The notes below the pieces were generated by a model. The model was not told where the DNA came from. It saw only the letters and a program-made list of their open reading frames with translations, and did not search any database. Position numbers and translations under genes: made by a program. Positions 37,904 to 57,065 of a DNA stretch of 64,000 nt are shown piece by piece (the first letter of the stretch is position 1; each line of letters starts with the position of its first letter). Source of the stretch: Profundicola chukchiensis (GTDB lineage: Bacteria > Bacteroidota > Bacteroidia > Flavobacteriales > Weeksellaceae); the NCBI RefSeq assembly GCF_029664245.1, contig NZ_JANAIE010000002.1, positions 124,001 to 188,000 on the forward strand. The letters are read 5' to 3'.

Positions 37904-39094
37904 TTGAAAAAAAAGATTTTAATCCTAGGCGGCTCATATGCTCAATTACCTTTTATTAAAGAGGCTAAAGCAAGGAATTATTATATAATTTTAATAGACT
38001 ATCTGGAAAACAACCCGGGTCAAGAATTTGCTGATGAATACTATAGTTTAAGCACTACCGATAAAAATGCGGTTTTAAAATTAGCTATAAAAATTAAACC
38101 TGATATTATCTATTCCTATGCGTCAGATCCAGCAGCTCCTACCGTAGCTTATGTTGCCAATAAATTAGGCTTAAAATATGCTAACAATCCAACCTCTGTG
38201 GATATTTTAGGGGAAAAAAATAAATTCAAGGAATTTTTAAGATTAAATAATTTCAATGTCCCTAATTTTATTACTATTAATCTAGATAGTGATAATATTG
38301 ATAAATTAGAGGTTTTAGATTTGCCTTTTATCATAAAGCCTACGGATTCATCTGGAAGTAAAGGAGTTAACCTGATAACAAGTTATGAGGAAATTAAAAA
38401 AGCTGTAAAACACGCTCAATCATTTAGTAGAAATAATATCTTGATTGCAGAGGAATACATTGATACAAATTGGCAACAAATTCATGGAGATATGTTCATA
38501 GAAAACGGCGAAATTATTTTCAGCCATTTAGGAGATCATCACTTCGATATAAATCAAAATTCATTTGTCCCCTTTTCAACATCTTGGCCCTCTAAATATT
38601 CCAATAAACTTATAGAAAAAGTTAATTCTGAAGTTCAAAAAGTCTTAAACCTTTTAGAATACAAGAATGGCCCTATTAATGTAGAAGCTCGAATAAAAAA
38701 TGAAAAAGTTTATATAATGGAATTAGGACCTAGAAATGGTGGAAATTTTGTTCCCATAATTTCAAAAATATCCACTGAATTTGATATGATTGAGGGCTTA
38801 TTTAATCAATTTGAAGGCATTACTAATACAGTTCCCTCAACTACGACAAAACCATCATGCTATTACGTACTGCGTTCTTTTAAACCTGGGCTTTTAAAAA
38901 AAATAAATATATCAAAGGAATTGGATGCGAAAATTGAAAAATCATATATTTATAAAAAGGTAGGTGAGCAAATTAATTCATTTTCAGGAGCAAATGAAGC
39001 CATAGGGGTTTTTCTGATGACCTTCGATAATATAAAAGAAATGAACAACTTTTATGAGAAGGACTCGGATTTAATATCAATTGAATTAGATTAA
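37904..39094 (+). CDS. ATP-grasp carboxylate-amine ligase-like protein
   Basis: The 396-residue protein has a pre-ATP-grasp domain (KILILGGSYAQLPFIKEAKA) and an ATP-grasp core from about 110. FIIKPTDSSGSKGVNLI supplies the ATP lysine and glycine loop. VEARIKNEKVYIMELGPRNG supplies metal-binding Glu and Asn. It resembles PurD/CARNS-like ligases more than the short ATP-grasp genes at 32299 and 44995. The start is TTG at 37904. It heads the tight cassette with a PLP enzyme, a NeuD homologue and CoA-ester enzymes; it could make an amide on a sugar or an acid precursor, but the substrate is unknown. Confidence 0.75.
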   Translation: MKKKILILGGSYAQLPFIKEAKARNYYIILIDYLENNPGQEFADEYYSLSTTDKNAVLKLAIKIKPDIIYSYASDPAAPTVAYVANKLGLKYANNPTSVDILGEKNKFKEFLRLNNFNVPNFITINLDSDNIDKLEVLDLPFIIKPTDSSGSKGVNLITSYEEIKKAVKHAQSFSRNNILIAEEYIDTNWQQIHGDMFIENGEIIFSHLGDHHFDINQNSFVPFSTSWPSKYSNKLIEKVNSEVQKVLNLLEYKNGPINVEARIKNEKVYIMELGPRNGGNFVPIISKISTEFDMIEGLFNQFEGITNTVPSTTTKPSCYYVLRSFKPGLLKKINISKELDAKIEKSYIYKKVGEQINSFSGANEAIGVFLMTFDNIKEMNNFYEKDSDLISIELD

Positions 39095-40931: not shown

Positions 40932-40984
40932 ACTTACAAATAAAATATCGTTAATGCTTAATTTCAAATAATTCACAATTGCAT

Positions 40985-41812
40985 ATGGATACTTTTTTCT
41001 TTATACCTGCGTCTAAACATCACAAAATTGATGATATATTAAAATTGGGTGTTGAACATATAATTATTGATTTTGAGGATTCAGTATTAGAAAAAGACAG
41101 ATTATTATTATTTGAAGAAATCAAAACTCATCCTCTTTTTAAAAGTTTTTGGTACAGGATTCCATTTAGAAGCGATTTCAAAGACACTATTGATTTAACC
41201 TTCCTAAAGCTATTTCAAGATAATGAAATAGCAAATTTCGTTTTCCCAAAATTAAAAGACCTTGAAGAAGTAATTAGCATTAATAATTTTAATCTACATA
41301 AAACATCATGTATATTATTAGTTGAACATCCTAGATTATTATTTGATTTAGAACAAATTCTGAGGAGTAATCTTGATAAATTGGAAATTACGGGTATAGG
41401 ATTAGGCTCACATGATTTAACAAGTGTTATGAACACTTTAAATAATGAGCGTGTATTAAATTACCCTAAATCATACCTTTCTTATTTATCCAAAGCTTTT
41501 GGTATTATTAATATCGATGTTGCATCCATGGAGTTAAAAGATTTCACTAAATTTAGTGAAGAATTAGAAATAGCACATGAATTTGCATGTGAAGCTAAGT
41601 TTTTAATTCATCCAATTCAATTGGAATGGATGAAGTCTATCTCATCCAAGTCTCAGATTGAAATAGAGTGGGCAGAAACTATCATTAATGCGCTTCCTCA
41701 GAATGTCAATCCAGAAGAAATTGAACCATTCGTGCTTCAAGGTAAAATTATAGAAAAAATGCATATAATAAATGCGTTAAATACGTTAAAAGAAAATAAA
41801 GATGGAAAGTAA
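40985..41812 (+). CDS. CitE/HpcH-like CoA-ester lyase or aldolase, copy 1 (diverged)
   Basis: The 275-residue TIM-barrel protein follows the CitE/HpcH plan: VEHIIIDFEDSVLEKDR (metal/substrate Asp), WYRIPF for the Arg strand, LLVEHPRLLFDLEQIL for the Glu, GIGLGSHDLTSVM, and FLIHPIQLEWM at the end. It is shorter and more diverged than the second copy at 42261. CitE-like enzymes cleave or form CoA esters such as citryl-, malyl- or methylmalyl-CoA. ATG 40985 is preferred to the TTG two codons earlier. It overlaps the MaoC-like gene by 11 bases. Confidence 0.75.
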   Translation: MDTFFFIPASKHHKIDDILKLGVEHIIIDFEDSVLEKDRLLLFEEIKTHPLFKSFWYRIPFRSDFKDTIDLTFLKLFQDNEIANFVFPKLKDLEEVISINNFNLHKTSCILLVEHPRLLFDLEQILRSNLDKLEITGIGLGSHDLTSVMNTLNNERVLNYPKSYLSYLSKAFGIINIDVASMELKDFTKFSEELEIAHEFACEAKFLIHPIQLEWMKSISSKSQIEIEWAETIINALPQNVNPEEIEPFVLQGKIIEKMHIINALNTLKENKDGK

Positions 41813-42257
41813 ATTTGGTAATTATTTAGAGGACTTTAATGTGGGTGATACTATTCAGCATGCGTTATCAAAAACCATATTCGAAAGCGACAATAACCTT
41901 TTTAGTTTATTGACGATGAACCATCATCCTGTACATCTAAATAATGATTTTGTGAAAGGCCACCAGCATGGTCAAATCTTAGTTGTTGGTACTTTAGTTT
42001 TCAGTTTAGCCGTAGGAATTACAGTCGGTGATATCAGTGGTAAAGCTATTGCTAATTTAGAGTACGAATCTATTAAACACTTAAATCCTGTATTTATTAA
42101 TGATACAATATATGTGAGAACAAAAATATTGGACAAAAGAGAATCTAAATCTAAAAGTGATAGAGGGATAATTTATGTTGAAAGCATTGCATACAATCAA
42201 GACGGAATTGACGTATTAAGTTTTCGTCGAAAAGTACTTATACCTAAAAAACCATAA
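41802..42257 (+). CDS. MaoC-like hotdog-fold dehydratase/hydratase
   Basis: The 151-residue protein starts FGNYLEDFNVGDTIQHALSK and has TMNHHPVHLNNDFVKGHQHG, the hydratase motif normally written DxNPxHxD. Here Asp is replaced by Asn, but the His is kept. GQILVVGTLVFSLAVGITVG and LNPVFINDTIYVRTKIL complete the fold. Relatives hydrate enoyl-CoAs such as mesaconyl-CoA. It sits between two CitE-like genes, the combination found in mesaconyl/methylmalyl-CoA chemistry, which is unusual in a polysaccharide locus. Confidence 0.82.
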   Translation: MESKFGNYLEDFNVGDTIQHALSKTIFESDNNLFSLLTMNHHPVHLNNDFVKGHQHGQILVVGTLVFSLAVGITVGDISGKAIANLEYESIKHLNPVFINDTIYVRTKILDKRESKSKSDRGIIYVESIAYNQDGIDVLSFRRKVLIPKKP

Positions 42258-42260
42258 ACT

Positions 42261-43148
42261 ATGAAAAATCAACTTTTTAGAAGCCTATTATTTGTTCCTA
42301 GTCATAATGAAAAACTAATGACAAGTGCATCGAATTCCGATGCAGATATATTATTATTAGATATAGAAGATTCTGTTCAACCAACTTCCAATAAAGAAGT
42401 TGCTAGAAATACAGTGTTAAAATACCTAAAGGAAGGACATTTTGAAAATAAGATTCTATTTCCAAGGATTAATGATAGAGAAAGTGGTCAATTGCTGAAA
42501 GATGTTTTAGCTCTCACCACTGACGGAATAGCTGGCTTTATGTATCCTAAAGCTAAAAAAGGTGAAGACATCTACTTTTTTGACAAGCTTCTAGAAACCG
42601 TCGAATACGAAAAAGGAATCGAAAAAGGAACATTTAAAATTATCCCTCTTATAGAAACAGCATCAGCTGTGTTAAATGTAGAGGAGATTTGTAGAGCCTC
42701 TTCTCGAGTAGTTGCAATTGCTTTTGGCTCAGAGGATTTCATTACTGATTTAGAAGGGATTCATGATTATGAACACACTAGTCTTTCAACTCCTAGAGCA
42801 ATAATAGCCATGGGTGCTCGTGCTGCTGGAGTCATTCCGATTGATACAGTTCATATTAGGGTTCATGATTTGGAAGATTTAGAAAAAAACCTAATCATAT
42901 CTAAGAATTTAGGTTTCGAAGGTATGTTAGTTTTACACCCCAAGGAACTCCCATTAGTTCATCAATACTTTTCGCCTTCCATTCAAGAAGTTAATGATGC
43001 TAAAGAAATGCTTAAATTAGCAGAAGAAGCTGAAAAGTCAGGGGTTGGTGTTGCGATTAAAAATGGTAAGTTTATAGGCCCACCAATGATAAAAAACGCA
43101 CAAAAGATTTTATATAAACACAAGCTAATTGAGGATAAAGAATCCTAA
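42261..43148 (+). CDS. CitE/HpcH-like CoA-ester lyase, copy 2
   Basis: The 295-residue protein is a full CitE-family member. FRSLLFVPSHNEKLMTSA begins it, ADILLLDIEDSVQPTSNK has the Asp/Glu pair, ILFPRIND the arginine, IPLIETASAVLNVEEI the metal Glu, AIAFGSEDFITDLEG the next acid, and MLVLHPKELPLVHQYFSP the C-terminal lid. Reactions in the family include malyl-CoA and beta-methylmalyl-CoA cleavage or formation. It follows the MaoC-like gene by three bases. The product may be a hydroxy-dicarboxylic CoA ester used to decorate the glycan; this is inference. Confidence 0.85.
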   Translation: MKNQLFRSLLFVPSHNEKLMTSASNSDADILLLDIEDSVQPTSNKEVARNTVLKYLKEGHFENKILFPRINDRESGQLLKDVLALTTDGIAGFMYPKAKKGEDIYFFDKLLETVEYEKGIEKGTFKIIPLIETASAVLNVEEICRASSRVVAIAFGSEDFITDLEGIHDYEHTSLSTPRAIIAMGARAAGVIPIDTVHIRVHDLEDLEKNLIISKNLGFEGMLVLHPKELPLVHQYFSPSIQEVNDAKEMLKLAEEAEKSGVGVAIKNGKFIGPPMIKNAQKILYKHKLIEDKES

Positions 43149-43162: not shown

Positions 43163-44125
43163 ATGGTCAACTTAAAAGAACCAATAGCAATATCAGAACA
43201 AAATTGGGATGATAACATATCTCCTTTGGTTAGTATTCAATGTATAACTTATAATCATGAAAAGTACATAAAAGATGCTATCGAGGGATTTCTTATGCAA
43301 AAAACAAATTTTCCAGTAGAAATTCTTATTCATGACGACGCCTCAACCGATAGAACTGCTGAAATAATTAGGGAATATGAATTGAGGTATCCTAATTTAT
43401 TTAAGCCTATATATCAAGTAGAGAATCAGTATTCGAAGAAAAAAGGAGTTATAACTCGTATTCAAAATGAAAGAGCTAAAGGAAAATATATTGCTAAATG
43501 TGAAGGTGATGATTATTGGACAGACCCATTAAAATTGCAAAAGCAGGTTGCTTTTCTCGAAGAAAATCCAGAATATGTATTATCATGTCATAATTACCAA
43601 ATTCTTGATTTTGACGGAAAAAGTCTCAGAAAAGAATACGAGCATAAATTCGTGAATAATAAGGAATCAATAGATATCGATGAAGAAGTGTTCTTAAATC
43701 ATTGGATTACTAAAACGTTAAGCGTTGTTTTAATAAATGATCCTAAAATATTTAATGAAAATTCAAAAATAAAAAATCAGCGAGATTTAACTTTGTTCTA
43801 TACCTTTATAAAAAATGGTAAAGGGATTTTTCATAATTTTTATGGAGGAGTTTACAGAAAACAGAAAGGAGGAGTTCACTCATCTAATTCTGCCTTACAA
43901 GCTGAAAAGGAAACTTTAAAAATTTTAGAGGAATTAAATTTCATTTATAATACTAAAGCATTGCAAAAGAAAATTCAATTTGTAAAGCGAAATATTATAT
44001 ATTATAATTTTAAAAGTTCAGACTCTAAGTCGATACCTTTAAGAGAGATAAGAAATTTAAAAATTTCATTAAAAGAAAAATTTATATTATTGGGTATTTT
44101 AATATATAACAAACTTAAAATCTAA
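43163..44125 (+). CDS. Glycosyltransferase family 2
   Basis: The 320-residue GT-A enzyme has VSIQCITYNHEKYIKDAIEG at the N-terminus, LIHDDASTDRTAEIIREYE for the nucleotide loop and KCEGDDYWTDPLKLQKQV, whose DD is the metal-binding DXD-type motif. It is the ordinary inverting GT2 type used in repeat-unit assembly; donor unknown. It closes the cassette that starts at rfbA; a 422-base gap follows. Confidence 0.9.
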   Translation: MVNLKEPIAISEQNWDDNISPLVSIQCITYNHEKYIKDAIEGFLMQKTNFPVEILIHDDASTDRTAEIIREYELRYPNLFKPIYQVENQYSKKKGVITRIQNERAKGKYIAKCEGDDYWTDPLKLQKQVAFLEENPEYVLSCHNYQILDFDGKSLRKEYEHKFVNNKESIDIDEEVFLNHWITKTLSVVLINDPKIFNENSKIKNQRDLTLFYTFIKNGKGIFHNFYGGVYRKQKGGVHSSNSALQAEKETLKILEELNFIYNTKALQKKIQFVKRNIIYYNFKSSDSKSIPLREIRNLKISLKEKFILLGILIYNKLKI

Positions 44126-44547
44126 AATACTTAAAATTTTAAAGTTCTTTCATTTTAGTTTATTCAAAATAGATACAAAAATCTAACGAATATCTTCATT
44201 TACAAACGAAGCTGTAATATATTTTCAAAAACTCAGATCTTATAATATAGAAAAAGCATTTGGATGCCTTTAAGAATAACCTTTATTTATAAAAAACCTA
44301 TTTTCAATCGATAAAATAAAAATCAGATCCCATAAATTACTCAGATAAAAATTATATTAAATTATATAATAAAATTGACTTTTTCTAAATTTTCACTGAT
44401 GAAATTCGAAGATTAGACAACTTTATCTGTTTTCCTTTAAGCATTTTGTTAAACTTTAATTAATAAAACTTATACGCTTTTAAAAGTTTAGGTAATGCAA
44501 TTAAAAGGTTGTAAAATCCTATATTTGTTTTTTAAACATACTAATCA
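44126..44547 (+). other. AT-rich gene-free gap
   Basis: 422 bases of very AT-rich sequence between the GT2 gene and the chimeric pseudogene. Apart from the -7 box at 44520 and the start of the direct repeat at 44532, I see no gene, hairpin or remnant. Confidence 0.55.
44520..44527 (+). promoter_or_regulatory. -7 promoter element before the chimeric gene
   Basis: TATATTTG matches TAnnTTTG and ends 20 bases before the ATG at 44548. The equivalent element before the intact epimerase (47764) has the same spacing but a different sequence, and lies outside the direct repeat. Confidence 0.5.
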
Positions 44548-44878
44548 ATGAAAAACAAAGTTTTAATTACAGGTGGAGCAGGATTTATCGGCTCTAATTT
44601 AGCATTAAGATTAATCGATAAGGGATATGAAATTACAGTTTTAGACAATCTATCACCACAAATCCATGGTGAAGATCAAAACTCTAGTTTATATAACTCC
44701 ATTAAAGACAAAGTTACTTTCATTCAAGGTGATGTTAGGTATAGAGAAGATTGGGAAAAAGCCTTAAAAGGCCAGCATAAAGTAATTCATTTGGCTGCTG
44801 AAACTGGTACAGGTCAGTCTATGTATGACGTTCAAAAATATATTGATGTCAATTGTTATGGAACGGGTATCTTTTTAG
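44532..44878 (+). repeat. 347-base direct repeat, copy 1
   Basis: Shared with 47776-48122 at a constant offset of 3,244 bases. I count about 14 differences by eye, so about 96% identity. It spans 16 bases of leader plus the first 110 codons of the epimerase and ends abruptly after GGTATCTTTTTAG. Confidence 0.9.
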
Positions 44879-44993
44879 GTGATACTACTATCGAAAATGG
44901 CGCTGAGATTTCCGCAAACAGTGTAGTAAAAAGATTTGTTCAAGAAACTCTACATTTGGAGGAAACCCAGCTAAAATAATTAAACAATTCTAA
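44548..44993 (+). pseudogene. Chimera: epimerase N-terminus fused to acyltransferase C-terminus, frameshifted
   Basis: Codons 1-110 repeat the NAD-binding half of the epimerase at 47792 ([20 protein letters not shown]). From base 44879 the sequence changes to the end of a hexapeptide acyltransferase: GDTTIENGAEISANSVV. The expected tail GGNPAKIIKQF is encoded at 44958-44990 but in another frame, with its stop at 44991-44993, so a frameshift lies shortly before it. Read straight through, a 143-residue product without the catalytic YxxxK results. Neither enzyme can be functional. It looks like a recombination junction that was then damaged. Confidence 0.85.
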
Positions 44994-44994: not shown

Positions 44995-46053
44995 ATGAAC
45001 ATAATCATCTCCCCTATTTTTCAAAACTTTTTTTCTGGTCGCATTTGGATGGGACTAGACTTTATGGAAATAAAAAAAGAGTTAGAATCTAAATATCAAG
45101 CTAAGGTTCAAGTAATTCCACTTAAAGACATAAAAAGATCTTTAAACGATATACCTGAAGGTGCTGTACTTTTTTATTCTTCTGTATATAATCCAGAATA
45201 TTTAAAATTCATTCAAGATAGTATTACATATATTTCTTTGAAAAGACCTGACATCATATTAATGCCCAACCAACATCAATTAAATGCCTTAGAAAATAAA
45301 GGTTACCAAGAATTATATAAAGATTTGATAGGAATTGAAAAGGTACATGGAGAATATTTTGGTGATATCGATGACCTTCTATCCATTGAGAATTCTTTAG
45401 ACTACCCATTCGTTTTAAAAAAGAATATGGGAGCTTTATCAAGTGGTGTTCAATTAATAAAGTCTAAAAATGAATTAATAAACTTTCGAGAAAGAGAAAA
45501 GAAAAGAAGCTTAAAAGAAAGAATTGCCTTCAAAATCAATAAAAGAAATAGCTTCAAAAAGGACAGTAACTTAAATCCTCATTTGGACTTATTAGAAGAA
45601 AATTTCCAAGATGTTTTCTCAAAAAGGACACCAGTGGTTGTACAAGAGTTTATCCCTGATTTAGATTGTGATTATAAAATTTTAATTTTTGGAGATAAAT
45701 ATTATACATTTAGAAGAGAAACTAGAAATAATGATTTTAGGGCAAGTGGTAGCGGAAAGTTTTCTTTTATTGCACCACCATTGAGCGTATTAGATTATGC
45801 TAGAGAGATTAATGATAAATTTAAAGTTCCATTTATTTCTATTGATATCGGAATAGATAAGAATGGAGAATGTTATTTATTTGAATTTCAAGGAACAGCT
45901 TTCGGCCCTATTGGCGTTACGCAATCAAAATTTCATCTAAAATATGTTTCAAACGAATGGATTAAAGTTGAAGAAAGTCCTAATTTAGAAAAAGCTTACG
46001 CATATGCAATACATCATTTCGTAAATTCTAATAAAAAAAATGAAAATCCTTAG
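44995..46053 (+). CDS. ATP-grasp enzyme paired with glycosyltransferase (copy 2)
   Basis: This 352-residue protein is a full-length paralogue of the protein at 32299-33345, visibly alike throughout (IIISPIFQNFFSGRIWMGLD at the start; FVLKKNMGALSSGVQLI; VVQEFIPDLDCDYKILIFGD; FRASGSGKFSF). All ATP-grasp landmarks are kept and there is no stop, so it may still work. It overlaps the broken GT gene that follows by 14 bases, the same order as the intact island. Its surroundings are decayed, so expression and use are doubtful. Confidence 0.72.
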   Translation: MNIIISPIFQNFFSGRIWMGLDFMEIKKELESKYQAKVQVIPLKDIKRSLNDIPEGAVLFYSSVYNPEYLKFIQDSITYISLKRPDIILMPNQHQLNALENKGYQELYKDLIGIEKVHGEYFGDIDDLLSIENSLDYPFVLKKNMGALSSGVQLIKSKNELINFREREKKRSLKERIAFKINKRNSFKKDSNLNPHLDLLEENFQDVFSKRTPVVVQEFIPDLDCDYKILIFGDKYYTFRRETRNNDFRASGSGKFSFIAPPLSVLDYAREINDKFKVPFISIDIGIDKNGECYLFEFQGTAFGPIGVTQSKFHLKYVSNEWIKVEESPNLEKAYAYAIHHFVNSNKKNENP

Positions 46054-47106
46054 ACTTTCTACATTTTTAGACTTTGGAGGAGTTGAAACCAGGCTAGCAA
46101 ACATATCGCATACAAATACCTAGCATGAATGGGTTTTCGTTTGTATGAACAATGAAGGTAAAGCAGTAGAAAATATTAAGAAATATAATAAGCCTGTAAT
46201 AAACCTAAAAACTAAACCTAGTATCTATAGTTTTACAACCTTTCATAAGGTTTTAAAAGTTATTAAGAAAGAAAAACCAGTTTTAGTGCACACTTCAGGT
46301 GCTGAAGCCAATTTTCATGGCATAATCGCAGCTAAAATAGCAGGCGTAAAAGTAATTATTGGTGAAGAAATTGGGATTCCTCAACATGGCTCTCAAGCAA
46401 AATTTATATATTCTACCATATATAAATTTGCTAATTATATTGTTGGCAATTCGCAACAAGTTCTAGATGTCGTGCATGAACAAGATAATCTCCCTTTTCA
46501 AAATTAGTTAAAATCGCCAATCCAATTATTTTCAAAGAAATCCCAACGAAGGAAATTAAGGATTTTAGTGATTATCAATTTAAATTACTCATGATATCGC
46601 GCCTAGAGCCTGTTAAAAACATTAAGGCTGTATTAAATGTGATGAAGCGTTTGGTGAAATTGAATCACAAGGTTCATTTAACAATTGCAGGAAGTGGAAG
46701 TTTAGATAAGGAATTACGCGATCAAGTAAAGCATCAAAAATTAGATAATCATGTCAATTTTATTGGTTTTATTACCGATCCATATCCTCACTTACTAACA
46801 TCTGACTTATACGTATTAAATTCATTTACTGAAGGTTTCTCTAATTCATTAGTGGAAGCAATGTATAGTAGAACGCCAGCTCTAAGCACCTCAGTGGGAT
46901 CAGTTCCAGAAATTATTAAGGACGGTGAAAATGGATTCCTAGTAGAACCCGACAATGAAGATTTGTTGGTTGATAAAATATTGGAGATAATGAAAACACC
47001 TAAAGGGCATTTACTACAAATAGGAAAATCAGGGCATAAAACTGTGGTTAATAATTTCTCATTGGAAAAACATATATTTGAATTAATGAAAATTTATAAA
47101 AATTAA
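46040..47106 (+). pseudogene. Broken glycosyltransferase 4 gene (paralogue of 31247-32302)
   Basis: The start MKILRLSTFLDFGGVETRLA parallels the intact gene. A TAG at 46121-46123 replaces codon 28, where the intact protein continues towards NEWVF. The frame then runs on with HTSGAEANFHGIIAAKIAG and VGNSQQVL. A frameshift near 46495 moves it to SKLVKIANPIIFKEIP, and the rest includes MISRLEPVKNIKAVLNVM and NSFTEGFSNSLVEAMYSRTP (EX7E kept). With one stop and one frameshift, no full-length enzyme can be made. Partial pieces from internal ATGs lack one half of the GT-B fold. Confidence 0.88.
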
Positions 47107-47108
47107 GA

Positions 47109-47645
47109 ATGAAAAAATATTGTTCATCACTTGGGACGGCCCACAAACTTCTTATATGGAAGGACTTTTTATGCCTATATTCCATAAAATTTCCAAATTA
47201 GATGATTTCAAGTTTCATGTGATGCAATTTACCTAGGCAGATCAGCAAAAATTAAATCAAATAAAAGCAGCAGCTCAAGAATATGGTATTCACTACATTT
47301 CTCAAACTATTCAAAGAAAACCAATGGTTAGTATAGGTAGTCTCTACACTTTATTTACTTCTAGTCATAAGATAGCACATTATATAAAGGATTTTGAAAC
47401 TGTTATGCCAAATTAAAGAAAACCTAAATATTTTAAGGGATAAATATAAAAAAGCTCTTTAATACTTAAACTTAACACATATAGCTTTTGTGTTAAAAAA
47501 CACCAACACTAAGTATGCAGAGTATTACTCCAATAAAACTAGAGGAATACTTATTATTTAGTGTCCCCACCAACGCTTGTAATGGGGCTGGAGGCAATTA
47601 GGATTACTTAAGTAGATTAAAAGAGGCATTTTTATTTGAAAATTA
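47109..47645 (+). pseudogene. Remnant of a WDGPQTSYMEG-type glycosyltransferase (paralogue of 28843-30030)
   Basis: After ATG 47109 one A is missing from the A-run, shifting the frame before LFITWDGPQTSYMEGLFMPI. A TAG at about 47233 then replaces the Trp of QFTWAE in the intact paralogue. The N-terminal part ends at a TAA (47414-47416). After a gap, C-terminal pieces reappear at about 47470-47645: IAFVLKN, then after another shift SMQSITPIKLEEYLLFSVPT, which parallels SMQGVAPIKLGEYLLMGLPS. The middle is deleted. The gene is clearly dead. Confidence 0.85.
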
Positions 47646-47763
47646 ATCTACTACCTCCAACAATCGAGCTCTAACTTTCATTCAGAAGTGGAACAGTTTT
47701 AATAGGTTTGTAATAGGAGATAAAGCACTATCACATTTTTCATAAGAAAGTGCTGATAAATCT

Positions 47764-47775: not shown

Positions 47776-48122
47776 TTAAACATACTAATCAATGAAAAAC
47801 AAAGTTTTAATTACAGGCGGCGCAGGCTTTATCGGCTCTAATTTAGCATTAAGATTAATCGATAAGGGATATGAAATTACAGTTTTAGACAATCTTTCTC
47901 CACAAATCCATGGTGAAGATCAAAACTCTAGTTTATATAACTCCATTAAAGACAAGGTTACTTTCATTCAAGGTGATGTTAGAAATAGAGAAGATTGGGA
48001 AAAAGCCTTAAAGGGTCAGCATAAAGTAATTCATTTGGCTGCTGAAACTGGTACAGGTCAGTCTATGTATGACGTTCAAAAATACATTGATGTGAATTGT
48101 AATGGAACTGGTATCTTTTTAG
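47776..48122 (+). repeat. 347-base direct repeat, copy 2
   Basis: This is the copy inside the intact epimerase gene; it matches 44532-44878 with about 14 differences, several of them silent. The two copies bracket 2.9 kb containing the chimera tail, one ATP-grasp gene and two dead GT genes. Confidence 0.9.
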
Positions 48123-48925
48123 ATTTATTAGTAAATACAGAACACGAAATAGATAAAGTGGTTGTTGCCTCATCGAGAGCAATTTACGGAGAGGGAAAAT
48201 ATCATTGTAAAGAACACGGAACGGTGTATCCTAATGAAAGAAAGGATGCTGATATGGCTCAAGGTGAGTTTGAACCCAAGTGTCCTGTTTGTAATAAAGA
48301 TTTAGATTTAGTTCCGACTACAGAAGATTCTAAAATTCATCCATCTTCCGTTTATGGTATCACTAAACAGTTCCAAGAACAAACCGTATTAAATGTTTGT
48401 GGTTCTATTGGAATTAACTCAGTCGCTTTAAGATATCAAAATGTTTACGGACCAGGGCAATCACTTAAAAATCCTTACACAGGGATTCTTTCGATTTTTT
48501 CCACTCAAATTTTGAATGGGAACTCCATTAATATTTTTGAGGATGGTAAAGAAAGTAGAGACTTTGTATTTATTGATGATGTAGTAAACGCTACCATTAT
48601 GGCTATGGAATCAACTTCTTCGGCCAATAAAAGTTATAACATCGGAACAGGCATTGGTACGAATGTATTAGAGGTGGCTAATGCCTTAAATGATATCTAT
48701 GGAGCTCCCGTTGACATTAAGGTGACTGGTAATTATAGATTAGGAGACATCAGACATAATGTTGCTTCTTTAGACGCGGCTAAAAATGACTTCAACTTTA
48801 TTCCTCAAGTAACCTTTAGCGAAGGGGTACAAAAGTTTGGTAACTGGGTTAAAACACAGAAAGTTGAGGAAGATAATTACCAGAAATCTATAGAGGAAAT
48901 GAAGGCTAAAGGTTTATATAAATGA
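47792..48925 (+). CDS. NAD-dependent nucleotide-sugar epimerase, WbiB-like
   Basis: The 377-residue extended SDR protein has [34 protein letters not shown] and the catalytic SSVYGITKQFQE. A zinc-ribbon-like insertion between them (C-x2-H at YHCKEHG, then CPVC) is typical of WbiB-type dTDP-L-rhamnose 4-epimerases, which make dTDP-6-deoxy-L-talose. rfbC and rfbD are not in the window, so dTDP-rhamnose would have to come from elsewhere, or the substrate differs. Its first 110 codons are duplicated at 44548. It overlaps the next GT gene by four bases. Confidence 0.8.
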   Translation: MKNKVLITGGAGFIGSNLALRLIDKGYEITVLDNLSPQIHGEDQNSSLYNSIKDKVTFIQGDVRNREDWEKALKGQHKVIHLAAETGTGQSMYDVQKYIDVNCNGTGIFLDLLVNTEHEIDKVVVASSRAIYGEGKYHCKEHGTVYPNERKDADMAQGEFEPKCPVCNKDLDLVPTTEDSKIHPSSVYGITKQFQEQTVLNVCGSIGINSVALRYQNVYGPGQSLKNPYTGILSIFSTQILNGNSINIFEDGKESRDFVFIDDVVNATIMAMESTSSANKSYNIGTGIGTNVLEVANALNDIYGAPVDIKVTGNYRLGDIRHNVASLDAAKNDFNFIPQVTFSEGVQKFGNWVKTQKVEEDNYQKSIEEMKAKGLYK

Positions 48926-50160
48926 AAAAAGAATTAAAACCTTATACATTTTTTGCCTTAAATACCTTCGAAAAAGAAGGTGGAGGAACCATTAGAATGT
49001 ATGGAATGTTAAATTCTTTAGCTGGAAAGGGACACCCCGTTACTTTAATTTCCAATGCAAAGGATCATTCTAAATTTCATTCGAACATTAGGCATATCCC
49101 AATAAACTATATCATTACACCAGAAGAAAAAAGAAAATTTCAATTTTTACTTTCTGCTCTTCCCCTATTCGTGGTTAATTGGTTTTTTAAAGACTTATTA
49201 AACCACCTCAAAGAGGTTTTCAAAAACTCGAGCTTAGAGAAAGTTTATTTCTTTGAGTATTTAGATAATAGTATAGGATATTGGCTTAAGAAAAACAAGG
49301 TAATTAATAGCTATATCAACGATTTACATGGAGTGGCTACCCTTGAATTTGACTTTCAGAGAAAGAACAAGACTTCATTAAAAGATAAAGCCATTCTAAA
49401 TGCCAAATATCTTTCTGCTAAAAAACTAGATGAAAAAGTGTTAAAAGAAGCAGAATATAATATCTATGCGAGTAATGCCATGTTTGATTACTATGTTGAG
49501 CTTTATCCTCAACTGAGAAATCAAAAACTGGTAATTTTACCTTATTTATTACCTATAGAAGCTAGTGAAAGAGAGATTAATACAGAATTAGTAGAGAGTT
49601 TCAAACATCAATATCATATACAGCCCGACAACAAAGTAATTCTTTTTGCTGGGGCCTTTAAACTAACGGGAGGAGTTCTTGATTTAATTCAAGCGTTCCA
49701 TAAGATATCAGCAAAACATGAAAATGCTATATTATTGTTGGTGGGTGATGGTTATGAATTCAATAATTGCCAAGCCTATGTAAGTCAACATAACTTAAAG
49801 AATAAGGTTATATTTACTGGTCGTACGCCGTACGATCATTTGGCATCCTATCAAGAATTAGCTGATGTTATTGTTTGTCCTGATAAAGACAATGTATTTT
49901 CTCAATTGATAATTCATGTGAAATATTTAGATTCCTTATTATCAAATAAACCAGTAATCAATGGTAGTTTTAAAAGTGTTATGGAATTAAATCCAGCTAA
50001 AAAGCTATCTTTGACCTTCGAACCCTCTAATATTGCCGATTTAGCCAACGAACTCGAAAATGCGTTGATCCATAATCAACAGTTAAAGGAAAAATATAAA
50101 AATAATCGCCAAGAGGTACTGTCAAGTTTAACTTATGCTACCTGGAGGGATGAATTTTAA
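48922..50160 (+). CDS. Glycosyltransferase, GT4-like
   Basis: The 412-residue protein begins TFFALNTFEKEGGGTIRMYG, a GT-B N-terminal acceptor loop. KVILFAGAFKLTGGVLDLIQ, LLLVGDGYEFNN and NKVIFTGRTPYDHLASYQEL make the donor domain. The EX7E motif is not clear; DNVFSQLIIHVKYLDSLLSN stands in its place, so it belongs to a less typical branch. Its start overlaps the epimerase stop. Specificity unknown. Confidence 0.78.
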   Translation: MKKELKPYTFFALNTFEKEGGGTIRMYGMLNSLAGKGHPVTLISNAKDHSKFHSNIRHIPINYIITPEEKRKFQFLLSALPLFVVNWFFKDLLNHLKEVFKNSSLEKVYFFEYLDNSIGYWLKKNKVINSYINDLHGVATLEFDFQRKNKTSLKDKAILNAKYLSAKKLDEKVLKEAEYNIYASNAMFDYYVELYPQLRNQKLVILPYLLPIEASEREINTELVESFKHQYHIQPDNKVILFAGAFKLTGGVLDLIQAFHKISAKHENAILLLVGDGYEFNNCQAYVSQHNLKNKVIFTGRTPYDHLASYQELADVIVCPDKDNVFSQLIIHVKYLDSLLSNKPVINGSFKSVMELNPAKKLSLTFEPSNIADLANELENALIHNQQLKEKYKNNRQEVLSSLTYATWRDEF

Positions 50161-50183: not shown

Positions 50184-51410
50184 ATGGATTACATCTTTGT
50201 TCCCATCATATTAATTTTTGGCTTTGGCTTAAAGAGTAGGTATAAAATATTTACTGCAAAAGATCATATTTTATTAGATCAATTGTTCTTCTATCATATG
50301 ATTATGTCATTTATATTTTACATTTATTTAAGACTTAATGGAGGGGATTCATTTTTATATTGGAATGGCGTAAAAAATGTTGACTTTTCCTTCTTCGCCA
50401 ATTCATATATTAATAACCCTCGTCCCACAAGTACAATGTGGCTAATTAATTACATCCCATCTAATCTACTTAATTTAGATTTCTTTACGGGTTGTATACT
50501 ATATGGTGTTTTTGGTTATTGGGGTATGCTCTATATCTTACTAACCCTAAAAAAGTTTTTTCCATTATTACATGATTTAAAGAAGATAAAAATACTCAAC
50601 TTTTCTATTTTTCCGACTTTATTTTTTATGCCTAACTTTCATTTCTGGTCTGCTGGAGTTGGGAAAGATACTCTTTCATTTTTTGTGATATGTTTATGCA
50701 TCTATGCTCTTCTTGATATTAAAAAAAAGATTTACTATGTCGTAATACCTGTATTACTTTTATACTTCATTAGACCTCATATTCTATTATTTTTATTCTC
50801 CGGACTAGCCGGGGCCTATTTACTTAAAAGCAAATTGCTTTTGTTTCAAAAAGTATTTATAGTTGCCATAGGTTTTGTATTATTTTTACCTCTTTTAAAT
50901 TCTGTGTTGGAATTTGCTAATATAGACGCCGCAAATGTTGAGGCGTTCGATGAATTTAGCTCAAGTAAAGCTAGGGCATTATCAAAAGCTGGTTCTGGAG
51001 TTGATCTTGGTGCATTACCCTATCCTCTACAGGTATTAACTTTTCTATATCGTCCCCTATTTTTTGATGCCCATAACGTATTAGCTCTACTTGCTTCTGT
51101 AGAAAGTTTAATTTGGATTATACTTTCTGTAAATTTTTTTAGAAATCAACCCATCAAGGTGTTTAAACATAGTAATTACTTTATCTTAGGAGGTTTCCTC
51201 TTTTGGATTATTGGTGCCTTAGCCTTCGCTCCTTCCATGAGTAACTTGGGTATTATTATTCGAGAAAGAAATATGTTCCTTCCAGGATTTATAATTTTTG
51301 CAGTCGCTGGTTTATATAATACCCCGAAATTTAGGAAATATGAATGGTGGTTAAAATCTCAAGTTACCAATTCAACTGGTTTTAAAAGCTCAGTTAATAA
51401 GAAGCTTTAA
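50184..51410 (+). CDS. Polytopic membrane protein, Wzy polymerase candidate 1
   Basis: The 408-residue protein has about ten or more hydrophobic segments. Between helices it has FFMPNFHFWSAGVGKDTLSF and a FIRPHILLFLF segment. Wzy polymerases vary so much in sequence that size, topology and locus are the main evidence. It lies between two glycosyltransferases, with the flippase and Wza/Wzc elsewhere in the locus and no other polymerase apart from its paralogue next door. O-antigen ligase or EpsG-like roles are alternatives. Confidence 0.6.
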   Translation: MDYIFVPIILIFGFGLKSRYKIFTAKDHILLDQLFFYHMIMSFIFYIYLRLNGGDSFLYWNGVKNVDFSFFANSYINNPRPTSTMWLINYIPSNLLNLDFFTGCILYGVFGYWGMLYILLTLKKFFPLLHDLKKIKILNFSIFPTLFFMPNFHFWSAGVGKDTLSFFVICLCIYALLDIKKKIYYVVIPVLLLYFIRPHILLFLFSGLAGAYLLKSKLLLFQKVFIVAIGFVLFLPLLNSVLEFANIDAANVEAFDEFSSSKARALSKAGSGVDLGALPYPLQVLTFLYRPLFFDAHNVLALLASVESLIWIILSVNFFRNQPIKVFKHSNYFILGGFLFWIIGALAFAPSMSNLGIIIRERNMFLPGFIIFAVAGLYNTPKFRKYEWWLKSQVTNSTGFKSSVNKKL

Positions 51411-51443
51411 ATATTATTGAGTTAGGTTAGAACTTTTTATATT

Positions 51444-52556
51444 ATGTTTTCTCACAAAAAAAACTATTTCAACCCATCTAATCATGTCTTAAAAAGGGCA
51501 AATCCTGTATTTTATATAGTTTCAATTTCTCATTTCTTAATAACCTATTTCGCATATAAGTTTATTAATCTATATTCGGGCGATGCTAAAAACTATTGGT
51601 TTATAACTAAATCCAAAGAAGATTTCATCAATTCAACCCCAATTCCTTTAAGAGAAGATCTACTTTATTATATAAATTATATCTTTACAAATAATCTTAA
51701 TTTACCCTTTTGGTTTGGTTTTTTAATATACAGTTGCGTAGGTCTTTTAGGTATATGGATTTTATATAAAACAACACTTAAGCTAAATTCTTCAATTCAA
51801 TATAAATGGATTTACATTCCACTTCTACTTTTGCCAAGTATACATTTTTGGACAAGTATGATAGGTAAAGAGCCTATATGTTTTTTGGGCATAAGCCTGG
51901 TATTCTATAGTTTAATAACTACAAAAGTTAAAACAACTCCCATTTTAATTGGGTTCATTTTATTAGCTCTTGTTCGTCCTCATGTAGGTATAATCTTAGC
52001 ATTTTCTGTTATCCTTTCATTTCTAATTAAAAACAAAAAGATATCTATAAGCTATTTTTTGATGTTTATAACCTTCAGTGGAGCTAGTTTATACTTTTTG
52101 CTAAAATCGCATTGGTTAGAAAATTTCTCTCTAGATAACCTGCAATTCTTATTTCAAAAACATCATGAAGTTTTAAAAACTACGGATACCTACGTTCCTC
52201 TCGAGGAATATAATATTTTTTATAAAGTTTTCACCTTTTACTTTAGACCTTTGCCTTTTGAAATTAACAATCTATGGGGTTGGATTTCTGGGATTGAAAA
52301 TCTTTTTAGTTTATTCATTTTTACTATTGGATTATATTCTATTTTTCAACTTATACGAAAGCGAAAATATGCCTTAAGTAAATTAGATATAAGCATTATT
52401 ATCTTTTTCATAACTTTGGCTGGGGTATTTAGCTTAGCCTATTCTAATTTTGGTTTAATTGCGCGAATGAAAAATCAAAGTTTACCTTTTATGCTTATGC
52501 TTTGTATATATTGGATAGGCCTTTATTTTAATCAAAAAAAACATGGCAAAACCTAA
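51444..52556 (+). CDS. Polytopic membrane protein, Wzy polymerase candidate 2
   Basis: The 370-residue membrane protein is a diverged paralogue of its upstream neighbour: LLPSIHFWTSMIGKEPICF matches the other protein's PNFHFWSAGVGKD, and ALVRPHVGIILAF matches FIRPHILLFLF. Both have an Arg-rich loop near the end (GLIARMKNQSLPF here, IIRERNMFLP there). Two related polymerases or a polymerase/ligase pair would allow two linkages or two products. It overlaps the next GT by 14 bases. Confidence 0.6.
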   Translation: MFSHKKNYFNPSNHVLKRANPVFYIVSISHFLITYFAYKFINLYSGDAKNYWFITKSKEDFINSTPIPLREDLLYYINYIFTNNLNLPFWFGFLIYSCVGLLGIWILYKTTLKLNSSIQYKWIYIPLLLLPSIHFWTSMIGKEPICFLGISLVFYSLITTKVKTTPILIGFILLALVRPHVGIILAFSVILSFLIKNKKISISYFLMFITFSGASLYFLLKSHWLENFSLDNLQFLFQKHHEVLKTTDTYVPLEEYNIFYKVFTFYFRPLPFEINNLWGWISGIENLFSLFIFTIGLYSIFQLIRKRKYALSKLDISIIIFFITLAGVFSLAYSNFGLIARMKNQSLPFMLMLCIYWIGLYFNQKKHGKT

Positions 52557-53703
52557 ATTAATTCGAGTTACCACAGTACCCATATCATTAGACAAATTAC
52601 TAGAGGGACAACTCAAATTCATGTCAGAAACCTACGAAGTAATCGCGGTATCTTCTCCTGAGAATAACTACTTAAAGCAAATTGCAGAACGAGAAGGAGT
52701 AGCATTTCATCCTATCCCGCTGACTAGAGCAATTACTCCTATCCAGGACTTCAAATCTTTATGGGAAATGTATCGTTTCCTAAAAAAAGAGAAACCACAA
52801 ATCATCCACTCACACACACCAAAAGCTGGTACTATAAGTATGTTAGCTGCTAAAATGGCTGGAGTTCCTATTCGTCTTCATACCGTTGCTGGTCTTCCCT
52901 TAATGGAAGCTACGGGACTAAAAAGAAAATTATTAAATACAGTTGAGAAAATTACTTATTGGGCAGCCACTAAAGTTTTACCCAATTCAGAAGGATTAAA
53001 AGAAATTATATTAAAAGAGGGGTTTACTAAAAATGAAAAGTTACATGTAATTGGAAAAGGAAGTTCTAACGGCATCGATACCTCTTATTTCGATCCTAAT
53101 TTATTTAACGATGAAACAAAACATAAACTTAGAGAGTCTTTAAATATTCGAAAGCAAGATTTTGTATTTGTATTCGTTGGTAGAGTTGTTAAGGACAAAG
53201 GAATTGTGGAATTGGTTAATGCATTTAAGGCAATAAATGCAGAAAATATAAAACTTTTATTAGTTGGAACTTTTGAGCATGAATTAGACCCGCTTCCTCA
53301 AGAGATCATTTCAGAAATTGAAAATAGTCCTCATATTATACTGACAGGTTGGCAAAAAGATGTTCGTCCATATTTAGCTATTAGCGATGCACTCACATTT
53401 CCAAGTTATAGAGAGGGGTTTCCTAACGTAGTTATGCAAGCAGGGGCTATGGGGCTCCCTGCCATTGTTTCTAATATTAATGGATGTAATGAAATAATAC
53501 ATCATCACGAAAATGGATTAATCATTCCAGTAAAAGATAAAATACGCCTAGAACAAGCAATGCTTAATCTCTTGAAGGATCATACATTATATCATAATTT
53601 GAAATCACAAACTAGAAGCAATATTATAGAAAGATATGAACGTGATTATATTTGGCATAGTATTAGCACGTTTTATAAAAAATATTTAAATGGTCACTTC
53701 TAA
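52543..53703 (+). CDS. Glycosyltransferase family 4
   Basis: The 386-residue GT-B enzyme has IRVTTVPISLDKLLEGQLKF at the start, IIHSHTPKAGTISMLAAKMA, FVFVFVGRVVKDKGIVELVN, and PSYREGFPNVVMQAGAMGLP near the end. In the EX7E position the second acid is Gln (EGFPNVVMQ), a change I associate with capsule and O-antigen GT4 enzymes of this phylum. It often accompanies bacillosamine-starting genes and may add the second sugar; unproven. It is the last gene of the glycan cluster proper. Confidence 0.87.
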   Translation: MAKPKLIRVTTVPISLDKLLEGQLKFMSETYEVIAVSSPENNYLKQIAEREGVAFHPIPLTRAITPIQDFKSLWEMYRFLKKEKPQIIHSHTPKAGTISMLAAKMAGVPIRLHTVAGLPLMEATGLKRKLLNTVEKITYWAATKVLPNSEGLKEIILKEGFTKNEKLHVIGKGSSNGIDTSYFDPNLFNDETKHKLRESLNIRKQDFVFVFVGRVVKDKGIVELVNAFKAINAENIKLLLVGTFEHELDPLPQEIISEIENSPHIILTGWQKDVRPYLAISDALTFPSYREGFPNVVMQAGAMGLPAIVSNINGCNEIIHHHENGLIIPVKDKIRLEQAMLNLLKDHTLYHNLKSQTRSNIIERYERDYIWHSISTFYKKYLNGHF

Positions 53704-53829: not shown

Positions 53830-54984
53830 ATGAAGAATTATTTATTTTTTCTGTTAGCATTTTTCTTCGCTAACACTGCAATGCAAGCTGAAACATTAAC
53901 TTGTACTGCTCCTGATGCATCAAGCATTACTTTAACAAGAACAGCTCCAAAAGTTGCTGTAATCTCGGGTGCTGATGCTAATTTAACTTACCAAATTAAG
54001 GCAAATCAACATGGAAACGGTTTTGATCGAGCTAGAACGATTAACAACATATCTATGCCACATACTCAAGGTGGTTTAAATTCAAGCATCGCTTATGACA
54101 TTTGGATGAGAACGGATTGTGGTGATGGTACTTTCTCTGAGTGGGTTGGGCCATTATATTTACCTAAATATGGTGAAGTAGTTGAACCAGTATGTACTGC
54201 TCCAAATGCTGCAGATATTGTTTTGACAAGAACAAGCGCAACATCTGCTTCTTTTGATGGTGCTGATGCTAACTTTACATATGAAGTTAAAGCTAATAAA
54301 CATGGGAATGGAATGGAATTAGCTCAAACAATTACTAACGTAAGTATGCCACATTCTCAAAGTGGATTGAATGCTGCTATTGCTTACGACATTTGGATCA
54401 GAAAGGATTGTGGTGATGGTACTTTTTCAGAGTGGGTAGGACCTCTTTACTTACCTAAATTTGGTGAAGTTATTGACCCAGTTGTTTGTACTGCTCCTAA
54501 CGCTTCAGACATCGTTTTAACTAGAACTGGTGTTAAGAGTGCAACTATTGATGGTGCAAGTTCAGATTTCACTTATGAAGTAAAAGCTAATAAACAAGGA
54601 AATGGAATGGAATTAGCTCAAACATTAACTAATGTTACTATGCCTTACACTTTTAATCGTTTAAGTACACATAATATCGCTTATGACATTTGGATTAGAA
54701 CCAATTGTGGAAATGGAGAGTTTTCTGAATGGACTGGTCCTTTAAGTTTACCAATGTATGCTTCAAACGCAAAAATTTCACCAAACCCTACAAATGGTTT
54801 AGTTAAAATTCAAAATGTAGATGCAGTTAACGTACAAGTTTTCGGTATGACAGGTAATTTAGAATTATCATCTAAAGTGATGAATAACGAAGTTAACCTA
54901 TCAAATTTGAAAAATGGCCAATATATCATGCAAGTTACAGATGCAAATGGTAAGGTTACTACAACCAAATTAATGAAGAAATAA
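53830..54984 (+). CDS. Secreted protein with three Fn3-like repeats and T9SS sorting domain
   Basis: The 384-residue protein has a signal peptide (1-20), three repeats of about 97 residues (24-120, 121-218, 219-311) and a C-terminal type A sorting domain (312-384: ISPNPTNGLVKIQ..., LSNLKNGQYIMQV..., TTKLMKK). Each repeat has two Cys and a YDIWxRxxCGxGxFSEWxGP block. The repeats are alike even at DNA level, so recent expansion is likely. T9SS would take it across the outer membrane. It is flanked by its own promoter and terminator. Its link with the glycan locus is positional only. Confidence 0.88.
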   Translation: MKNYLFFLLAFFFANTAMQAETLTCTAPDASSITLTRTAPKVAVISGADANLTYQIKANQHGNGFDRARTINNISMPHTQGGLNSSIAYDIWMRTDCGDGTFSEWVGPLYLPKYGEVVEPVCTAPNAADIVLTRTSATSASFDGADANFTYEVKANKHGNGMELAQTITNVSMPHSQSGLNAAIAYDIWIRKDCGDGTFSEWVGPLYLPKFGEVIDPVVCTAPNASDIVLTRTGVKSATIDGASSDFTYEVKANKQGNGMELAQTLTNVTMPYTFNRLSTHNIAYDIWIRTNCGNGEFSEWTGPLSLPMYASNAKISPNPTNGLVKIQNVDAVNVQVFGMTGNLELSSKVMNNEVNLSNLKNGQYIMQVTDANGKVTTTKLMKK

Positions 54985-55155: not shown

Positions 55156-56289
55156 ATGAAAAATTATCTATTCATTATGCTGTCTATGCTATTTATTGGC
55201 CTAACAGCACAGGAAACGCAAGCTACTTGTTCAACCCCTACCGATGTACAAATCCAACGATTTAGTGACAACCATGCAGCCATGACCGCTTTTGGTGGAA
55301 CAAATTATGATTTGTATGTGAAACCCACCGGTTATCCAGCTCCAAGAAATACTACACCTGGAAGAGCTGGTTATAGGAACATAACAATGCCCTTAAGCTC
55401 TCTTGCTTTATTATCGCAATATGGTTATGATCTTTACATCAGAACAATATGTGAAGACTCTAAATCAAATTGGTCGGGTCCGCACTTAATTGCCACCTAT
55501 GAAGAATGTAACAACCCAACTGGAGTTTCAGTTTCAAGAATTGATGCTAACACAGCAAGTATAACAACAGATCCAGGAATACACGATGCTTGGATAGTTG
55601 AAGCTGGAGAAGCTGGACCTACTGATATTTGGTCAATTCCTACAGTTCAGGACTTTAATACTAATCATTCGGAAGGTGGATTAGAATCTTCTAAATCTTA
55701 TGATGTATGGGTTCGAAAACAATGTAACCCTAGTCAAGTATCAGACTGGGAAGGACCGTACAATATTCCTGCTTTCACACCTGAATGTACTGAACCAACT
55801 AATGTATTATTAACTAGAACAAGCCCAACAACAGCAACATTGGAAGGACCTGAGGAGTTTTTCACTTATCAAGGCTCAGCTAATCGTCCAGGAAGACCAT
55901 TAAGAGCGAGACCTCTGTATGGCATGAATAACATGAGCATACCTCATACACAACATCATCTAGTGCCAGCTTATGATTATGATGTATGGCTTAGAACTGA
56001 TTGTGGCGATGGAACTTTCTCTAATTGGACGGGACCATTCTATTTACCAACCTATAATGCTGGACTAAAGGAATTAGTAATCTCACCAAATCCCGCTTCA
56101 CAGTTGATTAGATTTGATGGAATTAAAGTTTCTAAAGTGGAAATCTTTAATATGAACGGAAAGCTAGAAATAAGTAGCTTTGTTACAAGTAATGAACTTA
56201 ATATTGAAAAATTAACTCCTGGTCAATATATAATTCATGCTACAGACGCACAAGGAAATGTTACTACATCTAAATTGATGAAGAAATAA
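55156..56289 (+). CDS. Second secreted Fn3-like repeat protein with T9SS sorting domain
   Basis: The 377-residue protein is a paralogue of the preceding one. It shares the signal peptide start MKNYLF and has three more diverged repeats (blocks YDLYIRTICEDSKSNWSGP, YDVWVRKQCNPSQVSDWEGP and YDVWLRTDCGDGTFSNWTGP). The sorting domain begins ISPNPASQLIRF and ends TSKLMKK. The third repeat is nearest to those of the first protein. It has its own promoter and terminator, so the pair can be expressed independently. Function of the repeats (adhesion or surface layer) is a guess. Confidence 0.87.
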   Translation: MKNYLFIMLSMLFIGLTAQETQATCSTPTDVQIQRFSDNHAAMTAFGGTNYDLYVKPTGYPAPRNTTPGRAGYRNITMPLSSLALLSQYGYDLYIRTICEDSKSNWSGPHLIATYEECNNPTGVSVSRIDANTASITTDPGIHDAWIVEAGEAGPTDIWSIPTVQDFNTNHSEGGLESSKSYDVWVRKQCNPSQVSDWEGPYNIPAFTPECTEPTNVLLTRTSPTTATLEGPEEFFTYQGSANRPGRPLRARPLYGMNNMSIPHTQHHLVPAYDYDVWLRTDCGDGTFSNWTGPFYLPTYNAGLKELVISPNPASQLIRFDGIKVSKVEIFNMNGKLEISSFVTSNELNIEKLTPGQYIIHATDAQGNVTTSKLMKK

Positions 56290-56453: not shown

Positions 56454-56482
56454 TGTCACTCTGAACTCGATTCAGAGTCTCT
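56454..56482. repeat. Family A palindrome (inverted orientation)
   Basis: TGTCACTCTGAACTCGATTC then AGAGTCTCT; almost identical to the copy at 25529. Confidence 0.65.
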
Positions 56483-56547
56483 GATAAAGGTGGTTTAAAT
56501 GTTGTTTAAAAATAGTTTAATTAGTTTAAAGTTCGCTTAACGTGAAT

Positions 56548-56621
56548 GTCTCTTGTCAGGCTGAGTAATTTTGTGAAATAAAATTGGATCGAAGTCTTGG
56601 ACAAGAGGAGAGCGAAGTGCG
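56548..56621. repeat. Family B hairpin repeat
   Basis: CTCTTGTCAGGCTGAGTAAT at the start and GTCTTGGACAAGAG towards the end are paired; ATTTTGTGAAATAAAAT forms the inner stem. An AGCGAAGTGCG tail follows. Confidence 0.7.
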
Positions 56622-56631
56622 TCAAACCCCT

Positions 56632-56692: not shown

Positions 56693-56728
56693 GAACTAAA
56701 TTTTACACACTACACTTTAAAATAAATT

Positions 56729-57055: not shown

Positions 57056-57065
57056 ACAATCCCAA

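Follow-up and report, generated by a model that had tools for sequence, protein, structure and literature searches.

The question raised by this surface-polysaccharide locus of Profundicola chukchiensis is why it contains the same short series of genes twice, once intact and once in a state of decay. The window, by which we mean the whole stretch of 64,000 nucleotides analysed here, lies inside a 459-kb contig of one strain's draft genome (2.62 Mb, 108 contigs), and encodes a sugar transferase, aminotransferases, an export protein, a chain-length protein, nucleotide-sugar enzymes and many glycosyltransferases (GTs). An ATP-grasp gene, a GT4 gene containing FLDFGGVE (GT1) and a GT4 gene containing WDGPQTSYMEG (GT3) occur in two sets, ~12 kb apart on opposite strands. 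Set 1 (28843-33345, minus strand) is open throughout and possesses an extra glycosyltransferase, the middle GT, between GT1 and GT3; set 2 (44995 to ~47650, plus strand) combines an open ATP-grasp gene with a broken GT1 and a broken GT3. In xenologous gene displacement a native gene gives way to an orthologue acquired from a different lineage, and we consider with good confidence that a native module has here been displaced in this way, like for like, its relic being still in place.

Alignment bears out the claim of the initial annotation that the series is present twice on opposite strands at these coordinates. The ATP-grasp gene of set 2 (44995-46053, plus strand) is open over 352 aa, as had been reported, and is 53% identical over 343 aa (E 7e-136) to that of set 1 (32299-33345, minus strand), while the two halves of the GT1 pseudogene (46040-47106, plus strand) are 52% and 47% identical to the intact GT1 (31247-32302, minus strand). 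The Glycos_transf_1 domain assigns to GT4 the GT1, middle GT (30027-31160, minus strand) and GT3 (28843-30030, minus strand) of set 1, all three with open frames, as well as the C-terminal half of the GT1 relic. Among the eight GT sequences of the locus, the pairs formed between the sets show 48% (298 bits) and 51% (119 bits) identity, whereas all other pairs aligned over at least 100 residues remain at or below 27% identity and 108 bits, so that the two sets are closer to each other than random GT4 pairs would be.

The damage to set 2 is much as first described. The GT1 relic starts at 46040, carries an in-frame TAG at codon 28 (46121) and is frameshifted near 46490, in agreement with the stop and frameshift previously noted. 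Comparison with the set 1 gene likewise upholds the frameshift, the Trp-to-stop change and the internal deletion claimed for the second GT: the GT3 relic starts at 47109, is frameshifted directly after its start and has a TAG at 47234 in place of a Trp codon, all in an N-terminal piece (47109-47410, plus strand), and a second piece (~47497-47646, plus strand), with more stops, matches the C-terminal part. Some 195 codons separate the two matched pieces; the 86 bases between them give a match below significance (E 0.13), which, if real, would reduce the distance to ~165 codons. In total, seven small lesions were counted in the 1,621 bases of relic pieces, in addition to two deletions. The extent originally assigned to the relic, 44995-47645, holds for its core; on the right, similarity to GT3 weakens past ~47650 with a weak match reaching 47784, but the left limit does not stand, as relic sequence begins at 44532 with a truncated epimerase (44532-44878) and the frameshifted tail of an acyltransferase (44879-44980). 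Counted over columns that do not vary among six other rows, changes number 8.4 in 97 for the GT1 relic (intact rows 1-15), 1 in 33 for the N-terminal piece of the GT3 relic, the only one compared (intact 0-4), and 3 in 104 for the set 2 ATP-grasp (intact 1-10). Because these changes fall within the range of intact genes, decay of the relics is recent on the scale of family divergence, and the earlier view that one set has decayed, and lately, is thereby sustained.

Which of the two sets is native can be read from gene order in relatives. Six genomes with an ATP-grasp match were compared over a stretch of ~20 kb each: G067 (same family), G002 (same genus; record WTFG01000011.1, Flavobacteriaceae bacterium Ap0902), one Aequorivita and three Flavobacterium. 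Three more genomes of the same family, G210, G186 and G124, have no ATP-grasp match, and G002 and G001 served as the two congeners. All six relatives with ATP-grasp hold one set, in operon orientation, upstream of the homologue of 50184, which is the position of the relic itself; the homologue of 52543 also follows downstream in five of them, the Aequorivita stretch ending too early. ATP-grasp adjoins GT1 in 5/6 (two genes intervene in Aequorivita), and GT1 adjoins GT3 in 5/6 (the middle GT and one more gene intervene in Flavobacterium Tobar2m). In G210, G186 and G124 the order is middle GT, GT1, GT3, epimerase, 48922-type GT and 50184 homologue, with one other gene between the middle GT and GT1 and with two, one and no genes, respectively, between GT1 and GT3, although the GT1 of G124 is only 37% identical. 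The order GT3, epimerase, 48922-type GT recurs in three of the five epimerase loci inspected, and the relic fits into the same succession, its GT1 and GT3 being followed by epimerase 47792, GT 48922 and 50184.

Set 1, on the other hand, sits backwards between the wecB-like gene 27651 and the acetyltransferase gene 33692. In the sister species G002, which has one set, in the native place, the wecB-like homologue directly adjoins the acetyltransferase homologue and the site is empty; in G067, F. suncheonense and G210 there is no wecB homologue at this point, and the acetyltransferase adjoins the homologue of 26532. In none of the four relatives with both sides (L010, L011, L015 and L041) is there a set between the acetyltransferase and the 26532/27651 homologues. 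Across the whole genomes of G067 and G002 there is one full ATP-grasp match each, and the other congener, G001, has the downstream anchors and no ATP-grasp match. Given the gene order in 6/6 relatives with ATP-grasp, the decayed set occupies the native place and orientation, and the intact set is an inverted insertion. Two points of the initial annotation are affected by this comparison: it is not the decayed set that is inverted, the relic running with the operon and the intact set against it in the light of all six relatives, and there is no support for reading the absence of a middle GT from the relic as decay of that spot, GT1 and GT3 being directly adjacent in 5/6. Since the gaps 28743-28842, 33346-33691 and 44126-44531 showed no convincing similarity to the relatives (best E 0.01), the ends of the insertion are not fixed to the base.

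The origin of the two sets was approached through phylogenetic trees. In the tree of concatenated ATP-grasp and GT1 every one of the five inner branches is starred, set 2 clusters with G067 (100/99) and G002 (100/98), and set 1 with Aequorivita (97/95); a clade of sets 1 and 2 is rejected at p-AU 7e-81. GT1 alone, with eight rows, gives the same picture (set 2 with G067, 99/97, then G002, 99/98; set 1 with Aequorivita, 99/95; p-AU 3e-54), and with eleven rows, among which G124 is a long branch, set 1 and Aequorivita stay together (97/97), as do set 2 and G067 (89/95, not starred), the joint clade being rejected at p-AU 3e-4. A two-tree test underlies the smallest of these values, which say no more than that the clade is clearly rejected. 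ATP-grasp alone yields a weaker rejection than GT1 (p-AU 0.018). Moreover, each gene of each set is nearer to another bacterium (57-65%) than to its partner in the other set (48-53%). Because the trees reject sisterhood for the joined genes, for GT1 and for ATP-grasp, the two sets are xenologues rather than paralogues, and the term 'paralogue' in the first description is contradicted by the ATP-grasp and GT1 trees, the GT3 fragment giving no decision. Composition gave no signal of foreign origin, the GC content of set 1 (0.29-0.34) and its GC3 (0.20-0.28) being comparable to those of the other listed open genes (0.27-0.37 and 0.20-0.31).

Individual relatives resemble one set or the other. G067 has the module acyltransferase, ATP-grasp, GT1, GT3, and shares with G002 the ATP-grasp, GT1, GT3 order of the relic, to whose set their ATP-grasp proteins are 65% (G067) and 59% (G002) identical; unlike the relic, both modules have all genes open, with a single ATP-grasp match per genome. 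Flavobacterium sp. Tobar2m-G16 presents ATP-grasp, GT1, middle GT, another gene and GT3, namely the order of set 1 plus one gene, while Aequorivita sp. LH_M31 is nearest to set 1 in sequence (61-63%) but has two genes between ATP-grasp and GT1. The sets of both run forward within their own loci, in contrast to the inverted set 1. The label 'Aequorivita-like' for set 1 derives from GT1 and the joined tree.

A search of the strain's own genome supports a takeover by set 1. For GT3 the relic is the only other match at E 1e-5; GT1 has, besides the relic, matches at or below 30% identity (E 1e-10), and the middle GT has others at or below 33% (E 1e-20). GT1, middle GT and GT3 therefore exist as intact close copies in set 1 and nowhere else in the genome, so that functions kept by relatives in one operon are now intact, ATP-grasp excepted, only in the inserted set; the idea that one set stands in for the other is to this extent corroborated. 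Two ATP-grasp matches occur in this genome only, of 119 genomes searched, and the family is rare, being found at E 1e-60 in 2 of 395 genomes drawn from the order, this one included. A switch between two glycan types had also been proposed; as the two sets are orthologous gene for gene, a like-for-like replacement is the plainer reading.

In the course of events that we propose, a xenologous module (ATP-grasp, GT1, middle GT, GT3), with its nearest found relative in Aequorivita, would have displaced the native ATP-grasp, GT1, GT3. Gene order and trees show that this module was inserted in opposite orientation, with the wecB-like gene on one side and the acetyltransferase next to it on the other. 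With set 1 as a backup, the native module would have come under relaxed selection. A deletion would then have fused the beginning of a second epimerase allele with the tail of the acyltransferase in front of ATP-grasp, perhaps removing a native middle GT as well, and the small lesions and internal deletion seen today would have broken the native GT1 and GT3, the sequence of these events being conjectural.

Several points weigh against displacement or limit it. An intact native ATP-grasp is not what pure decay would lead one to expect: the chance of its bearing no lesion is 0.03 if the seven lesions fall evenly, and 0.25 by GT1 alone. The ATP-grasp tree by itself has no resolved inner branches (set 1 with Aequorivita, 59/54), and GT3 alone, with only 100-150 usable columns, fails to reject the clade of both sets (p-AU 0.098, 0.12 and 0.155). 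The donor lies outside the sampled genomes: the nearest relatives found are only 57-65% identical per gene, and the Aequorivita ATP-grasp shows 62.3% identity to set 2 against a slightly lower 60.8% to set 1. The comparison genomes, finally, belong to other species only, and the state before insertion is not among them.

The history of the relic's left end is recorded in a direct repeat formed by the 5' part of the epimerase gene. The truncated copy (44532-44878, plus strand; 110 codons and upstream bases) matches the start of the full-length NAD-dependent epimerase gene (47792-48925, plus strand), whose 5' third is the right-hand repeat, in 316 of 330 coding bases; the repeats measure ~340 bp and lie 3,244 bp apart with the relic between them. 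Fourteen of the 110 codons differ, 12 of them synonymously, whereas a neutral copy would be expected to show 72-80% non-synonymous changes (P 3e-7 to 1e-5 for the observed pattern). The two non-synonymous differences both place Tyr in the truncated copy, against Asn, Ser or Gly in five relatives. Since 12 of 14 differing codons are synonymous, two working epimerase alleles diverged first and one was cut down later. The truncated allele is fused to the 3' tail of a hexapeptide acyltransferase (44879-44980, plus strand), frameshifted and resembling, in a by-eye comparison, the gene in front of ATP-grasp in G067 (L010:10711-11304). At the junction TTTTAG occurs in the epimerase as well as in the G067 acyltransferase, in keeping with a deletion at a short sequence common to both, with G067 being only a stand-in. 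One homologous crossover between the repeats would remove the relic and leave one complete epimerase gene.

The second epimerase allele may have come by recombination with another strain or from an older duplication. At E 1e-60, neither congener has an epimerase match. A single polysaccharide locus of G210 (L041/L042) contains two epimerase genes at a distance of 16 kb, 68% and 74% identical to that of the window, and the upstream one is flanked by homologues of 21330 and 22333; duplication within a locus thus occurs elsewhere.

Of the other explanations, the one that survives best is a variant of displacement in which decay came first and rescue later, the native module being broken, with its glycan lost or shortened, before the foreign module was acquired and restored function. 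It would lead to the same end state, and the one strain compared here does not order the steps. The changes at conserved residues of the GT1 and GT3 relics, however, indicate a recent decay, which mildly favours a backup already in place, and within the displacement reading we regard this order of events as possible but the less likely one. It is rather unlikely, in turn, that the native ATP-grasp was kept by selection to work with the foreign GTs; in that event one glycan would be decorated by two ligases of different specificity, and the rest of the native module would have been discarded, being removable via the epimerase repeats.

Lower still stands the proposal with the roles exchanged, the decayed set having come in and the inverted one being native. 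In its favour, the truncated epimerase beside the relic shows that a second allele was once present; but the position, strand and neighbours of the decayed set match those in all six relatives with ATP-grasp and in the three without, its GT1 groups with same-family rows, and the place of the inverted set is empty in 4/4 relatives showing the site, which makes the proposal improbable. A duplication within the genome, with one set a paralogous inverted copy that then decayed on one side, is harder yet to credit: gene content and order are alike and the GT3 fragments are statistically inseparable, yet a single clade is rejected for ATP-grasp and GT1 joined or apart, and every gene has a nearer match in another bacterium than in its partner. 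As for sequencing or assembly error, a draft of 108 contigs and a frameshift in a short run of A speak for it, but seven separate small lesions and two deletions, amid listed neighbouring genes that are open, in a contig of 459 kb in which the two epimerase repeats were kept apart and not collapsed, make it a very unlikely cause.

An invertible promoter or a phase-variable polysaccharide segment may still be entertained. No inverted pair of at least 40 nt with an exact 14-base seed was found in 24-58 kb, invertase genes not having been part of the search; when each gap was searched by itself, the five longest inverted repeats in 33.3-33.7 kb had arms of 13-17 nt, and there were none in 28.7-28.9 kb. 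TAnnTTTG is the -7 box of Bacteroidota promoters. It is present before both epimerase copies (44520 and 47764) and, on the minus strand, before set 1 (33418), among 111 occurrences on both strands of the window; none of the eight listed TAnnTTTG sites has a TTG 15-25 bases upstream.

With regard to what the ATP-grasp gene might do, ArgX, LysX and RimK are enzymes that join amino acids to carboxyl groups. The predicted structure of the ATP-grasp protein (pLDDT 79.9) best matches ArgX 3vpb (Z 21.1, rmsd 4.1, 276 aligned, 16% identity), followed by LysX and RimK (Z 19-21) and by synapsin, glutathione synthetase and the D-Ala-D-Ala ligases, Ddl (17-18). Both proteins are thus predicted to have the fold of RimK/LysX-type carboxylate-amine ligases. 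By sequence, the set 1 copy matches the RimK family weakly (22.5 bits against the Pfam cut-off of 21), the set 2 copy has no Pfam or NCBIfam match, and the best PDB sequence match is another ATP-grasp enzyme at E 0.02. As judged from the model, the ligase probably attaches an amino-acid-like group during glycan building. GT1 and GT3 occur without ATP-grasp in three relatives and with it in six; because of those three, ATP-grasp would be an optional step and not part of the GTs' own reaction.

Genes of different kinds are located between the middle GT and GT1 (L041 13700-14665, L043 6936-7916 and L044 9353-10432), where G067 has ATP-grasp; they are of the same kind in G210 and G186 and of another in G124. 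Decorating enzymes may be exchanged for one another at this position.

A known system offers a partial parallel. In pneumococcal serotype 37, the tts gene is situated outside the capsule operon and a redundant, incomplete 33F-like operon occupies the usual place (PMC5518733). The likeness would be that the surface glycan is produced from elsewhere, the operon in its customary position being incomplete and redundant. In serotype 37, one gene unrelated to those of the operon replaces a whole pathway, whereas here orthologues would replace their counterparts within one locus, ~12 kb off and inverted. Relative to the general concept of xenologous displacement, the present case differs in that a module of four genes entered elsewhere and on the other strand, and in that the copy it displaced can still be read; the case looks like an ordinary but unusually readable case of the takeover of a gene set. 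Among titles and the opening parts of abstracts, with subscription journals mostly outside the search, neither this locus nor a comparable ATP-grasp/GT relic was found to be described. Polysaccharide loci are mosaics whose intermediate steps are seldom readable, and here the displaced native module, the foreign module, the insertion site, empty in a sister species, and the scar of a recombination, with two epimerase alleles, are legible together. In addition, the GT1 and GT3 pair stays together across relatives, with the RimK-like ATP-grasp gene as a frequent but optional partner.

The genes that frame the two sets, all on the plus strand, are as follows. To the left of set 1 lie a conserved Glyco_transf_56 glycosyltransferase gene (26532-27650; PF07429, E 1.3e-9), with homologues in G002, G067, F. 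suncheonense and G210, and the wecB-like UDP-GlcNAc 2-epimerase gene (27651-28742; PF02350, E 5.5e-98; 65% to G002); to its right is a PglD-type acetyltransferase gene (33692-34339), assigned by domain match and gene order in relatives. A native GT2-family glycosyltransferase gene (43163-44125; 61% to G002) precedes the relic. Downstream, gene order in relatives identifies a native GT4 gene (48922-50160), two proteins without Pfam match (50184-52556) that anchor the native set and for which a role as polymerase would be a guess from position, and a conserved GT4 anchor gene (52543-53703).

Other observations concern the remainder of the window. At 40979-43148, inside the locus, two HpcH/HpaI (CitE/RipC-like) lyases surround a MaoC-type hydratase (RipB-like, 6e-36, below the family cut-off), and this unusual combination may produce an acyl group destined for a sugar. 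An ATP-grasp protein of another kind (Pfam ATP-grasp_4) is encoded at 37904-39094, with an aminotransferase on one side and, on the other, a 316-aa protein that matches no Pfam or NCBIfam family. At 53830-54984, tandem units of ~97 codons occur in a protein with a Por secretion tail, with one similar unit in the next open reading frame (55156-56289). The non-coding gaps 25215-26403 and 56456-57393, flanking the variable part, share repeats of ~65-91% identity, and this repeat family is dispersed over several contigs, with 78 matches in the genome, those of the gaps themselves included.

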